DNA from: Clostridiales bacterium
GTDB lineage: Bacteria; Bacillota; Clostridia; Peptostreptococcales; Acidaminobacteraceae
Direction of reading: 5' to 3'
Assembly (NCBI GenBank): GCA_016933835.1
Contig: JAFGAC010000194.1
Location: forward strand, 124,001 to 188,000
Length of the DNA: 64,000 nucleotides
The position numbers were made by a program, and so were the translations under genes. Position 1 is the stretch's first letter. Each line of letters starts with the position of its first letter. The notes beneath the pieces were generated by a model that saw only the letters and a list, made by a program, of their open reading frames with translations, searched no databases and was not told where the DNA came from. Shown piece by piece: positions 15,681-60,291 of the stretch.

Positions 15681-16446
15681 AAATGAATTTAATAAATATA
15701 TAAACAAGTGGAATAATAATCAACACACTGTCGAAACGGTCAAGAATACCACCGTGCCCTGGCATTATTTTTCCAAAGTCTTTAATGTTGAAAATCCTTT
15801 TTATTTTTGATGCAACTAAATCTCCTAATTGGGATATCACAGTTGTTATTATTATGAAACCAGCAAATACTGTTAAAGATGACAACTCCCTTAAATCAAA
15901 ATAATAATAAAATATCATACTTGACAAAGTTGCTCCAATAATACCACCTACTGATCCCTCTATTGTTTTTTTAGGGCTGATTGTCGGTGCCAATTTATGT
16001 TTTCCTATCAATCTTCCAGTAAAATAAGCGAAGGTATCCGATCCCCAGGCAATAATAAAAACAAGCCATACCATAACTGGAAAATCTGAAGAGGAAATGC
16101 CATTAAGTAAATAAATCGGTACAATGATATAAAAGATAGAAATTTGGAACAATCCGATTTTATCTATTTTCATAGTTTCTGTAAACAATCCTGTCAATAA
16201 AAACAAGAACATCATTAAAGTCAAAAATAATTCAAAATACTCAAAACCGAATAAGTACAAATACATCGTTGTAACAATACCCCCGATGAAAGTAAATAAA
16301 TTTAATATCTTAGTTGACAAGTAATACTCATACAATGCTATTCCAATAACTATAAATGACGAGATTTTTAAAACCATTCCTCCATGTATCAGCACATACA
16401 ACAATATTGGAAGAGCAACTATTGAACTGACCAGTCTTTTAATCAT
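15679..16446 (-). CDS. cdsA: Phosphatidate cytidylyltransferase (CDP-diglyceride synthase)
   Basis: 255 aa from ATG 16446, which has GGAGG eight bases upstream inside the end of uppS. This integral membrane enzyme makes CDP-diacylglycerol from phosphatidate and CTP for phospholipid synthesis. Several hydrophobic helices are evident (for example IVALPILLYVLIHGG). The family signature near the C-terminus reads SKIKRIFNIKDFGKIMPGHG followed by GILDRFDS. Translationally coupled to uppS, the conserved uppS-cdsA-dxr order. Confidence 0.97.
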   Translation of the reverse strand: MIKRLVSSIVALPILLYVLIHGGMVLKISSFIVIGIALYEYYLSTKILNLFTFIGGIVTTMYLYLFGFEYFELFLTLMMFLFLLTGLFTETMKIDKIGLFQISIFYIIVPIYLLNGISSSDFPVMVWLVFIIAWGSDTFAYFTGRLIGKHKLAPTISPKKTIEGSVGGIIGATLSSMIFYYYFDLRELSSLTVFAGFIIITTVISQLGDLVASKIKRIFNIKDFGKIMPGHGGILDRFDSVLIIIPLVYIFIKFI

Positions 16447-17143
16447 CTTTAAGTCCTCCAAACCGTCTATCTCTTTGTGTAAAGTTTTTCAATGCTTTTT
16501 CAAATTCTTTCTCATTGAAATCAGGCCAAAGTACATCAGTAAAATATAATTCAGAATATGCCAACTGCCATAGAAAAAAATTACTTATACGTAATTCACC
16601 ACTTGTTCTAATCAACAAATCTGGTTCAGGCATGTCTTTTGTATATAAATACTTGCTGAAATCATTTTCTGTTATTGATTCTACTGTACCATTTTTCAAC
16701 ATTTCATTTATACCATGAATGATATCGCTTCTACCACTGTAATTAAGAGCTATGTTAACAATGATTCTATCACAGTTTTTAGTCAATTGAACGGAATTGT
16801 TTATTTCATTTTGAAATTCCTCAGCAAAATCACTTAAGTCACCTAATATGTTTAACCGTGCGCCTTCTTTTACAAAATTCTTTGTTTCAGCACGCAAATA
16901 AGTCAATAAAATATCCATTAAAGCACTAATCTCTTCTGCAGGCCTTTTCCAATTTTCTGTAGAAAAAGCATAAAAAGTTACATATGAAATTCCTATATCT
17001 TTGGCATAGGTAATAATTTTTCTTAAATTTTCAGTACCCGCTTTATGACCTAATGTTCGAGGTAAAAATCTTTTTTTTGCCCATCGACCATTGCCATCCA
17101 TAATAAACGCAACATGCTGTGGTATTTTCATTTGTGTATCCAT
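16439..17143 (-). CDS. uppS: Undecaprenyl diphosphate synthase (isoprenyl transferase)
   Basis: 234 aa. It condenses isopentenyl diphosphate onto farnesyl diphosphate to make the C55 lipid carrier for cell-wall synthesis. The catalytic motif HVAFIMDGNGRWAKKR lies at about 10-25, with RTSGELRISNFFLWQLAYSE and DVLWPDF near the C-terminus, all family hallmarks. The start has GGAGGT at good spacing. It lies directly downstream of a small PASTA-like gene. Confidence 0.98.
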   Translation of the reverse strand: MDTQMKIPQHVAFIMDGNGRWAKKRFLPRTLGHKAGTENLRKIITYAKDIGISYVTFYAFSTENWKRPAEEISALMDILLTYLRAETKNFVKEGARLNILGDLSDFAEEFQNEINNSVQLTKNCDRIIVNIALNYSGRSDIIHGINEMLKNGTVESITENDFSKYLYTKDMPEPDLLIRTSGELRISNFFLWQLAYSELYFTDVLWPDFNEKEFEKALKNFTQRDRRFGGLKDD

Positions 17144-17166
17144 TTTACCTCCAAGAAAACACCCTC

Positions 17167-17379
17167 CTATAATTGGAGGGTTGTATAGGCTACAATCAGT
17201 TCCACTTCATCATCAATCACTCTTTGTGCAATGACAATAGTATCTTTAATTGAATAATTGAAATATCTCAAATCTTTTCTGTTGATTGTTTCTTTAATAA
17301 CTATATTCAAATTTTTATCAAAGGCATAAATCTTCTGACGTGCTTGATCTATAGTTAATGATCTAACATCAGGTATCAC
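17167..17379 (-). CDS. Small stand-alone PASTA-like domain protein
   Basis: 70 aa from a GTG start with GGAGGT five bases upstream, inside the last codons of frr. The whole product resembles one PASTA repeat: MIPDVRSLTIDQARQKI matches the PxVxGxxxxxAxxxL entry, and DTIVIAQRVIDDEVELIVAY matches the xxVxxQxPxxGxxVxxxxS exit strand. PASTA modules usually repeat outside the membrane in PrkC-type kinases and class B penicillin-binding proteins. This one has no signal peptide, membrane helix or partner domain, so it should be cytosolic. It sits between frr and uppS. Function unknown; domain call by eye. Confidence 0.75.
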   Translation of the reverse strand: MIPDVRSLTIDQARQKIYAFDKNLNIVIKETINRKDLRYFNYSIKDTIVIAQRVIDDEVELIVAYTTLQL

Positions 17380-17937
17380 TTAGACCTCCATTATTTCTTC
17401 TTCTTTTTGCTTAATCAAGTCATCAATAATCGCTACATATCTATCGGTCATTTTCTGAACTTCATCTTCTGCTGACTTCAATTCATCTTCAGTGATCTCA
17501 TGTGCTTTTTGAGATTTTTTCAATTTATCATTTGCTTCTCTTCTCTCATTCCTTAAGGCTACCTTGCTTGCCTCTCCAACTTTTTTAACCGACTTAGCTA
17601 GTTCTTTTCTTCTCTCTTCAGTTAAAATCGGCAATGTCAATCTAATTACTTTACTGTCGTTTGATGGATTAAGTCCTAAATCTGAAACAAGTATCGCTTT
17701 TTCAATACTTGAAATTGAAGTTGGATCGTAAGGCTGAATAAGTAATACTCTTGCCTCAGGGACAGAAATATTAGCCATTTGCTTAAGAGGTGTGCTTGTA
17801 CCATAATAATCCAAAAGGATGTGATCCAAAAGTGCTGGATTTGCTCTCCCAGCTCTAATGCTATGTAAGTCATCTTTCAATACATGAATTGTCTTCTCCA
17901 TTTTTTCATTTAATAAATCATGAACAAAATTCTTCAT
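17380..17937 (-). CDS. frr: Ribosome recycling factor
   Basis: 185 aa, the standard length. RRF splits post-termination ribosomes with EF-G. The sequence shows the family blocks [35 protein letters not shown] and a long C-terminal helix. ATG 17937 is chosen because GGAGG lies eight bases upstream; its A is shared with the TGA stop of pyrH. The standard rpsB-tsf-pyrH-frr order holds. Confidence 0.98.
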
Positions 17938-18653
17938 CAAAAACTCCTCCTTATTTCTGTACCAATGCTTTCACCATTAAGTATTCTAATGATATTACTA
18001 GGTTCATTCAATCCAAAAATATTAATTGGAATATCATTATCATTTAAAAGTGTAGCAGCAGTCAAATCGATTACCTGTAATTCTTTTTCGATAATCTCCT
18101 TATATGTTAGTTTATCAAATTTTTTCGCATCTTTAAATAGTTTTGGATCTTTATCATACACAGCATCAATATTTTTTGCAAAAAGAATTTTTGAAGCATC
18201 AATTTCAGCAGCACGCAAAGCTGCAGTAGTATCTGTTGAAAAAAATGGGTTCCCAGTTCCAGCAGAAAAAATAACAACTCTTTTCTTTTCCAAATGTCTA
18301 ACTGCTTTTCTCTTTATATATGGCTCTGCAATTTTATTCATTTCTATAGCAGACATAACACGTGTCGGTATTCCCAGATTTTCTATTGTGCTTTGAAGAG
18401 CAAGAGAATTAATTACAGTTGCAAGCATTCCCATATAGTCTGCAGTTGACCTGTCCATATCTTTAGAGCTTCGACCTCTCCAAAAATTTCCACCGCCAAT
18501 AACTATCGCAATTTCAAATCCAAGATCGACAGCATTTTTTATTTCTTTTGCTATTTCTTCTAGGGTATCAAAATCGATGCCTGTTCCATGCTCTTTAGCA
18601 ATAGCTTCTCCACTCAATTTTAATAAAATTCTTTTAGGATTTTTTATATTCAA
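17937..18653 (-). CDS. pyrH: Uridylate kinase (UMP kinase)
   Basis: 238 aa from a TTG start with GGAGG seven bases upstream. It phosphorylates UMP to UDP for pyrimidine nucleotide supply, as a hexameric amino-acid-kinase-fold enzyme. Motifs: [38 protein letters not shown] and [17 protein letters not shown]. It lies between tsf and frr. A weak terminator hairpin separates it from tsf. Confidence 0.98.
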
Positions 18654-58378: not shown

Positions 58379-60291
58379 TCAACAAAACTCCCTGGCAAAG
58401 AACGATAGAATTCATCGCCAAAATAGACATTGATTGTCACTTGCCCGCTAGAAGTTAGTTCTACAATAAATTCGCCTTCATCTTTTCTATGCTCAGCTTC
58501 ATAAACAACAGATGTGATTCCATCTTTAACAATTTCAATTTTAACTTTTTCAACTTCATTCACAAAATCAGCTGTAAAAAATTTTAGCGGTAGAGTAACC
58601 TGTTTTTCAGGTTCAGGTCCATTGCTTAAAACGACATCGACAGTTGTTCCAGGATATATGATGCTCCCTTGTGAAATGCTTTGCGAAACGATTAAGTCTA
58701 TAGCATAAGTTGAGTATTCATACCCTACCGGATTTAAATAAATATTTTTTCCTTCAAATCTAGCAATTGCTTCTTCATAGCTAAGGCCTATTATTGTCGG
58801 CATAATATACTCTTGTTTAGCTTTACCTTGGGAAACTACTATATCAATAACCCCACCGATTTCGATTTCTTCAGCTGCCTTTGGATTTTGACTTATTATA
58901 TATCCTGCTGGAAGATCATTAATAACATATTCAATATTGCCAATTACCAATTCTTTATTTGCCAATACGATTTCAGCTTCACTTATTTCCTTTTGAAGTA
59001 AATTTGGAACTTCAATCATATTCTTGCCTTTACTAATAATCACTTTAATAGTAAATCCTTCTTTCAATACCACACCCGGTTCTTCTGATTGCTCTATAAT
59101 CCATCCTTTTTCAATCACATTGCTGTATTGATAACTATCTTCTTCAATATAAAGACCTGTCTGATTCAAAAGAACTTTAGCTTCTTCAAAAGACATATTC
59201 ACAATATTTGGAACTTCAACTTCCTGTACAGAAAATTTATCCTGAAGTATTGTAAAGCCAATAATTCCAAAGATTATAATTGACGCAATAAATGCCATAA
59301 GTATTATAGTAACAAGAGATAAAGAACTTTTCTCTTTACCAGATTTGTTTTTCTTTTTTGCAGTGCTTTTTTTATTCTTCATTTTCATTTTTTCCAGCTC
59401 CTCGAAATCTGGTAAGAGCATCGTTGGATGATCATAATCAATATTATCTGAATATGGAAAAATTTCATTTGGGTTGTTTCGTAACCTATTGATATCTATA
59501 ATCATTTCATTGACGCTTTGATATCTTGTGTCAGGATTTTTGCTCAATGCTTTTAATATAATATTTTCCAATCCTTCAGACATATTCTTGTTTAGTGTTC
59601 GTGGATTCAAAATTTGTTCTTTCATATGCTTCAGAGCAACTGCAATAGGATTATCTCCTTCAAATGGCAATTTGCCTGTTGCCATTTCGTACATGACTAC
59701 ACCTAAAGAATATATATCAGAACGCTTATCAATAAATGACCCTTTTGTCTGTTCTGGAGAAGAGTAATGAACACTGCCAAACATTTCTTTTTTATGAACA
59801 ATCGTTGAAGAATTGATAGCTTTTGCAATTCCAAAATCAGCAACTTTTGCAGTCCCATTTTCAGAAATCATTATATTTTGAGGTTTGATATCTCTATGAA
59901 TGATATTGTTCTTATGCGCATGCTCAAGTGCACTTGCTATTTGTAAGCTGAAACGAAGTATTTCATTTTCATCCAAAGGACCATTTTTATCCCTAATATG
60001 CTTTTTTAGTGTAATGCCATTAATGTACTCCATTACAATGTATCGTGTTTTCCCTTCAACCCCCACATCAAAAATATTTACGATATTGGGATGATTCAGT
60101 TGTGCCGCAGATTTTGATTCATGATCAAATTTTTCAATAAATTCTTCATCATCATTAAATTGGCTTTTTAATATCTTAACAGCGACAAAGCGTTGCAGCA
60201 CATGGCATTTTGCTTTGTACACGTTTGCCATTCCACCTTCGCCTATTTTTTCCATCAGTTCATAACGTTGACTGAGAATTTTTCCAATCAT
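58375..60291 (-). CDS. prkC: PASTA-domain Ser/Thr protein kinase PrkC
   Basis: 638 aa. A membrane kinase sensing muropeptides or lipid II. The kinase domain (about 10-270) has GEGGMANVYKAK, catalytic IHRDIKPQNIMI and VADFGIAK. A lysine-rich linker leads to one membrane helix (about 330-352). Three PASTA repeats follow (starting VPNIVNMSFEEAKVLL, VPNLLQKEISEAEIVL and MPTIIGLSYEEAIARF), and then a C-terminal beta-sandwich-like domain of about 80 residues. Coupled to prpC upstream and rsgA downstream. Confidence 0.97.
   Translation of the reverse strand: MIGKILSQRYELMEKIGEGGMANVYKAKCHVLQRFVAVKILKSQFNDDEEFIEKFDHESKSAAQLNHPNIVNIFDVGVEGKTRYIVMEYINGITLKKHIRDKNGPLDENEILRFSLQIASALEHAHKNNIIHRDIKPQNIMISENGTAKVADFGIAKAINSSTIVHKKEMFGSVHYSSPEQTKGSFIDKRSDIYSLGVVMYEMATGKLPFEGDNPIAVALKHMKEQILNPRTLNKNMSEGLENIILKALSKNPDTRYQSVNEMIIDINRLRNNPNEIFPYSDNIDYDHPTMLLPDFEELEKMKMKNKKSTAKKKNKSGKEKSSLSLVTIILMAFIASIIIFGIIGFTILQDKFSVQEVEVPNIVNMSFEEAKVLLNQTGLYIEEDSYQYSNVIEKGWIIEQSEEPGVVLKEGFTIKVIISKGKNMIEVPNLLQKEISEAEIVLANKELVIGNIEYVINDLPAGYIISQNPKAAEEIEIGGVIDIVVSQGKAKQEYIMPTIIGLSYEEAIARFEGKNIYLNPVGYEYSTYAIDLIVSQSISQGSIIYPGTTVDVVLSNGPEPEKQVTLPLKFFTADFVNEVEKVKIEIVKDGITSVVYEAEHRKDEGEFIVELTSSGQVTINVYFGDEFYRSLPGSFVE

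Follow-up and report, generated by a model that had tools for sequence, protein, structure and literature searches.

The window, a 64,000-nucleotide stretch of a Clostridiales bacterium genome, carries on its minus strand rpsB, tsf, pyrH, frr, a small open reading frame (ORF), uppS, cdsA, dxr, rseP and ispG, in the usual Firmicutes order. The features that concern us are the following.

17379→17167, minus strand: 70-codon gene for a predicted cytosolic, single-domain PASTA-like protein, GTG start, TAG stop (ORF list, orthologues, dN/dS, family profile and fold)
17385..17389, minus strand: Shine-Dalgarno sequence GGAGG of the small gene, within the last frr codons (sequence)
17380..17940, minus strand: frr, ribosome recycling factor (RRF) (ORF list; tblastn to relatives)
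16439..17143, minus strand: uppS, undecaprenyl diphosphate synthase, with its own GGAGG at 17148-17152 (ORF list, sequence)
17937..18653, minus strand: pyrH, upstream in the rpsB-tsf-pyrH-frr unit (ORF list; order kept in relatives)
17161..17181, minus strand: terminator-like hairpin ACCCTCC-AATTATA-GGAGGGT followed by the tail GTTTTCTT, its 5' arm formed by the last codons of the small gene (pattern scan)
58621..59220, minus strand: three canonical PASTA repeats of a PrkC-type kinase, used for comparison (PF03793, E 2.3e-12, 1.5e-10 and 2.9e-9)

The GTG is the very next codon after the frr stop TAA (17380-17382) and lies in the same frame as frr, while uppS starts at 17143, 23 nt past the stop codon of the small gene. 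The first-pass annotation had described a GTG start served by a strong site inside frr, and the GGAGG at 17385-17389 in the 3' end of frr bears this out. It named no strand for the ORF, which lies on the minus strand. It had also placed PrkC in the window, where a frame of 638 codons indeed carries the three PASTA repeats.

Orthologues in the same place in two relatives (L010 and L011) are 66% identical to the window protein over all 70 codons without insertions or deletions, and a protein search found more distant orthologues elsewhere in the order. These again lie between frr and uppS, flanked by pyrH and cdsA where the contig extends that far. Pairwise NG86 estimates gave dN 0.218 and dS 1.267 for the window against L010, with 33 of 58 differences at third positions, and dN 0.126 and dS 0.867 for L010 against L011 (25 of 41), a dN/dS of about 0.14-0.17. 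Because of this excess of synonymous changes, the codon comparisons indicate that the small gene is under purifying selection at the protein level. The claim that the 70-aa ORF between frr and uppS is a real gene therefore stands.

A profile of six members retrieved many more from the order, and a profile of 52 did so from the class and phylum, with loci checked by tblastn using pyrH, frr, uppS and cdsA of the window. Across class and phylum we obtained 217 distinct orthologous loci, every one directly downstream of frr. The gene lies between frr and uppS at all loci of the order, at 30 of 30 in the class, and throughout the phylum set save for one hit (L274), a PASTA protein whose frame exceeds 600 codons and which we rejected as an orthologue. 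Further hits, 80 out of 80, directly follow frr. Named carriers include Thermotalea metallivorans, Marinisporobacter, Alkalithermobacter paradoxus, Peptacetobacter hominis and Romboutsia maritimum, among others. In the Bacilli seen (Salinicoccus and Lacicoccus) there are only short frr-uppS spacers without the small gene. Within the window's own GTDB family, five of the 30 frr loci examined have the gene, and in nearly all the rest -4 to 173 nt separate frr from uppS. The gene has thus been lost in most genomes of this family, which makes it dispensable. The survey of frr-uppS spacers proposed in the first-pass annotation yielded both a wide distribution and absence from most genomes of the window's own family. 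We consider it probable that the loci represent an ancient family of small cytosolic proteins of about 60-75 aa, with one PASTA-derived domain each.

Several other candidates were set aside. Two apparent frr-PASTA fusions of 252 and 259 codons (G1016 and G1067) are long frames overlapping frr in GC-rich DNA, where the gene is separate. A match in another contig of the window's genome (C123) contains five internal stops, has neither frr nor uppS nearby and is a chance match; weak matches from the search of the order that lack the operon genes nearby (for example, L094) were likewise taken as chance. Weak matches in frames of at least 600 codons, several of which we read, are canonical PASTA kinases and penicillin-binding proteins (PBPs) and served as a comparison set. 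SpoIVA occurs in 60 of 70 carriers versus 217 of 321 other genomes (Fisher p 0.002, relatedness ignored), a weak link with sporulation. The window's own genome has the small gene without SpoIVA, so SpoIVA is not required for it, and we rejected a sporulation requirement.

Searched alone against Pfam, the window protein did not match PASTA (PF03793). The family does: 59 of 110 aligned members match PF03793 at E<=0.1 (best 4.6e-7), the next Pfam family being matched by four members, and two of ten members tested singly exceed the curated PF03793 cut-off (25.0 and 24.9 versus 23.2 bits). The HMM search that had been suggested for the window protein thus finds PASTA in about half of the family members and not in the window sequence. 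Among solved structures, a profile of the 110 members found the three-PASTA structure of Staphylococcus aureus PrkC (E 1.2e-9), with those of PknB and PonA2 ranking next. Alignment with hhalign to 13 PASTA repeats of kinases and PBPs, four of them from the window's genome, gave 96% probability and P 1.1e-9 in the N-terminal half, where the homology signal mainly resides. Apart from PASTA, no Pfam or NCBIfam family covers these proteins. Three other matches were rejected. DUF4467 (PF14729), a family with a cystatin-like fold, scored 17.5 bits against a cut-off of 25 with the window member only, of the 110, and the fold matches are to PASTA; a type II restriction endonuclease match of the window protein was below cut-off and not common to the family; and a dTor designed-repeat protein from the PDB search was the sum of six weak repeats, none significant singly.

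The N-terminal motif [IV]P[DN][VL].G....A...L is present in the family, with Ser in place of Gly7 and Ile in place of Leu10 and Leu17 in the window protein, and an Arg before strand 2 is conserved in 97 of 110 members. The C-terminal QxPxxGxxVxxGxxV is not found: its Gln alone is kept, in 67 of 110, and a turn only a few residues long takes the place of the loop. Without the QxPxxGxxVxxG loop that joins strands 2 and 3 in PASTA, the family is a PASTA-derived domain and not an entire standard repeat. Of the earlier description of the product as one entire PASTA repeat with nothing else, the single PASTA-like domain survives at the family level but the completeness does not.

The predicted structures point the same way. 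AlphaFold modelled the window protein at pLDDT 85 with a helix at residues 10-20, strands at 25-30, 43-55 and 58-69 and an extra short helix, and the Thermotalea protein, a typical member, at pLDDT 86 with a helix at 11-19 and strands at 24-30, 42-50 and 53-60. Both models thus have one helix on three strands, as in PASTA. When the Thermotalea model was used in a fold search, ranks 1-12 were all PASTA domains (PrkC, PBP2x, PknB and PonA2) with a Foldseek probability of up to 0.99, at E-values above 0.05 as expected for 61 residues. For the window model the PonA2 PASTA domain ranked first with low confidence, and the PASTA matches were weak (TM 0.46-0.49). Structure prediction, another check put forward in the first-pass annotation, therefore favours PASTA for the typical member but only feebly for the window protein.

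The highest 19-residue hydropathy among the 110 members is 1.31 and a membrane segment occurs in none of them (0/110); neither a signal peptide nor a fusion to other domains was found. The small protein is accordingly predicted, as had been proposed, to be cytosolic, and probably is so. The window protein is an atypical family member. At the two positions that the family conserves best, its clade has changed, Gly7 being replaced by Ser or Ala and Arg48 by Ile or Met, and because of this loss the clade may have drifted in function; the rest of the protein stays under selection. The comparison with L010 and L011 further shows that the ORF has been lengthened by four codons, which reach into the hairpin.

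At most loci the small gene starts 0-6 nt from the frr stop, and in most orthologues its Shine-Dalgarno sequence lies within frr; to judge from this arrangement, its translation is coupled to that of frr. Towards uppS, a hairpin begins between -16 and +9 nt of the stop codon at 119 of 217 loci (stem score at least 16). At a stem score of at least 19, hairpins occur at 108 of 217 loci, whereas 9 of 651 dinucleotide shuffles reach that score and, at the frr stop, 4 of 217 loci do. Stem sequences vary between families while the pairing stays complementary, and Rfam found nothing in the region. About half of the stems lack a T-rich tail, unlike ordinary terminators.

The next gene is uppS at 213 of 217 loci. 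In three genomes uppS lies elsewhere, 5.6 kb off (G709), about 71 kb off (G579) or on another contig (G492); in all three the small gene stays after frr, and uppS is not preceded by anything like it. One more locus lacks uppS (L321), but there the contig breaks off, which makes it uninformative. In G709 (L371), the genes just before uppS look, judged by their sequence alone, like those for an RtcB-type ligase and a protein resembling release factors. The converse, a small gene with uppS but away from frr, was not seen, and the tight frr spacing makes such a break unlikely. The small gene had previously been regarded as coupled to uppS. It does adjoin uppS, but a hairpin separates the two, uppS can be elsewhere, and the coupling is to frr instead. 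Since it is coupled to frr, is followed by a hairpin before uppS and stays with frr where uppS is elsewhere, the small gene is best seen as the cistron that ends the rpsB-tsf-pyrH-frr unit.

Outside class Clostridia, many lineages have a gene for a 2[4Fe-4S] ferredoxin of 54-60 aa between the PASTA-like gene and uppS. We observed this insertion at loci L242-L246, L248, L251, L252, L254, L255, L257, L261, L267, L268, L276, L277, L283, L285 and L286, and in 22 of L330-L369; the operon elsewhere includes dxr and ispG. Ferredoxin is linked to IspG, and the inserted ferredoxin may feed electrons to this enzyme. With a ferredoxin inserted there, in an operon with dxr and ispG, the frr-uppS interval appears to collect genes of isoprenoid supply.

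Our best reading, to which we give a probability of about 0.6, is that the small gene closes the frr unit as its last cistron and encodes a PASTA-derived binding module of the cytosol. Its translation would be coupled to that of frr, with the hairpin at its own stop codon separating it from uppS, so that supply of the small protein would follow ribosome production. The PASTA-derived domain would serve for binding or as an adaptor, in the manner of extracellular PASTA domains, and might dock onto a protein partner or a cytosolic envelope precursor, either UDP-MurNAc-peptide or lipid I/II at the inner leaflet. By analogy, we tentatively suggest a role in envelope or isoprenoid precursor supply, because PASTA binds muropeptides in PknB, uppS adjoins, isoprenoid genes lie downstream and a ferredoxin is inserted. 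The PASTA domains of PknB bind cell-wall fragments, that is, muropeptides (PMC3145798). A study of essential genes in Clostridioides difficile found uppS1 essential and does not mention PASTA (PMC12548448).

The first-pass annotation had speculated that the protein could sense or handle undecaprenyl-linked intermediates. A more specific form of this idea makes the small protein a partner or regulator of UppS, binding the enzyme or the polar head of undecaprenyl phosphate at the inner membrane face and so setting the supply of lipid carrier. The adjacency of uppS at nearly all loci, the ferredoxin inserted before uppS outside the class in an operon with dxr and ispG, and the binding of cell-wall fragments by PASTA in PknB (PMC3145798) all speak for it. 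Against these stand the three genomes in which the small gene remains after frr while uppS, elsewhere, has no such gene in front, the hairpin between the two genes, and our failure to find any fusion of the small gene to uppS. We regard this partnership as possible but doubtful.

The link with frr might instead reflect a role tied to RRF or translation, the product being a helper that is synthesised alongside RRF and binds to it, to EF-G or to the ribosome. Its position directly after frr at all loci examined, with coupled translation and also in the three genomes that have uppS elsewhere, is what such a helper would predict. This linkage proves little, however, because a spacing of 0-6 nt from frr at most loci makes a separation mechanically unlikely; moreover, the PASTA homology gives no hint of ribosome binding, and the family's median pI of about 6 is unlike that of a typical RNA-binding protein. 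A translation helper is thus unlikely.

A third possibility is that the act of translating the ORF counts for more than the protein it yields. A ribosome terminating at the stop codon would cover the 5' arm of the hairpin, and recycling by RRF would then govern both the formation of the hairpin and the continuation of transcription or translation into uppS. The hairpins at the stop codon, far above the number in shuffles, the coding nature of the 5' arm in the window and the T-rich tail on about half of the stems (61 of 119) agree with such a cis-acting role. Yet the protein fold is kept across the phylum under the low dN/dS given above, and a purely cis-acting role needs neither; nearly half of the loci lack a strong hairpin, and terminators near stop codons are ordinary in Firmicutes. 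We find this explanation improbable. Finally, a chance ORF or a decaying remnant in the window's lineage would fit the loss from most genomes of its GTDB family, the missing conserved residues of its clade and the absence of any family match to the window sequence alone, but the identity to relatives over 70 codons without indels, the good start site and above all the strong synonymous excess, which largely refutes it, render it highly improbable.

Returning to the cytosolic binding module, we can extend it to a bolder proposal that we advance as a long shot. A phylum-wide cytosolic PASTA-like family might read the level of a cytosolic or inner-leaflet precursor (UDP-MurNAc-peptide, lipid I/II or undecaprenyl phosphate) and, because the small protein would be made in step with RRF, link that level to ribosome production. 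If true, it would be the inside-facing counterpart of the outward-facing PASTA kinases.

We found no description of the family in the open full-text literature, a scope that leaves subscription papers and preprints largely outside. The family is apparently undescribed, and a cytosolic single PASTA-derived domain tied to frr is apparently new. A standalone cytosolic PASTA fold, held at one chromosomal place across a phylum of anaerobes, would mean that the domain also works inside the cell. In many Clostridia the gene has the ribosome-recycling gene on one side and that for lipid-carrier synthesis on the other, and a link between translation and wall synthesis is conceivable.

Among known proteins, four members match the potato inhibitor I family, which includes chymotrypsin inhibitor 2, weakly (PF00280, best 0.017). 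CI-2/eglin appears in the fold list of the window model and not among the 50 listed fold matches of the typical member, and for the family as a whole this likeness is far weaker than that to PASTA. The single PASTA domain of Mycobacterium tuberculosis PonA2 (2mgv) is the nearest solved single domain of the same size, the top fold match of the window model and among the top matches of the typical member. Unlike our family, it is the C-terminal part of a large extracytoplasmic PBP (PMC3145798).

The closest relatives are the PASTA domains (PF03793) of PrkC/PknB/Stk1 kinases and of class B and class A PBPs. In common with these the family has the N-terminal PDVxGxxLxxAxxxL, a prediction of three strands with one helix, and the Gln conserved in strand 2, and both profile and profile-profile comparisons find significant similarity. 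Established PASTA domains serve as sensors outside the membrane, attached to kinases and PBPs, and bind muropeptides or beta-lactams. The 110 members of our family, in contrast, are predicted to be neither outside the cell nor joined to a kinase or PBP. They stand alone at 60-75 aa without a membrane anchor, replace the QxPxxGxxVxxG loop between strands 2 and 3 with a short turn, carry a family-specific Arg in RV[IV][RK]Q, and are encoded after frr.
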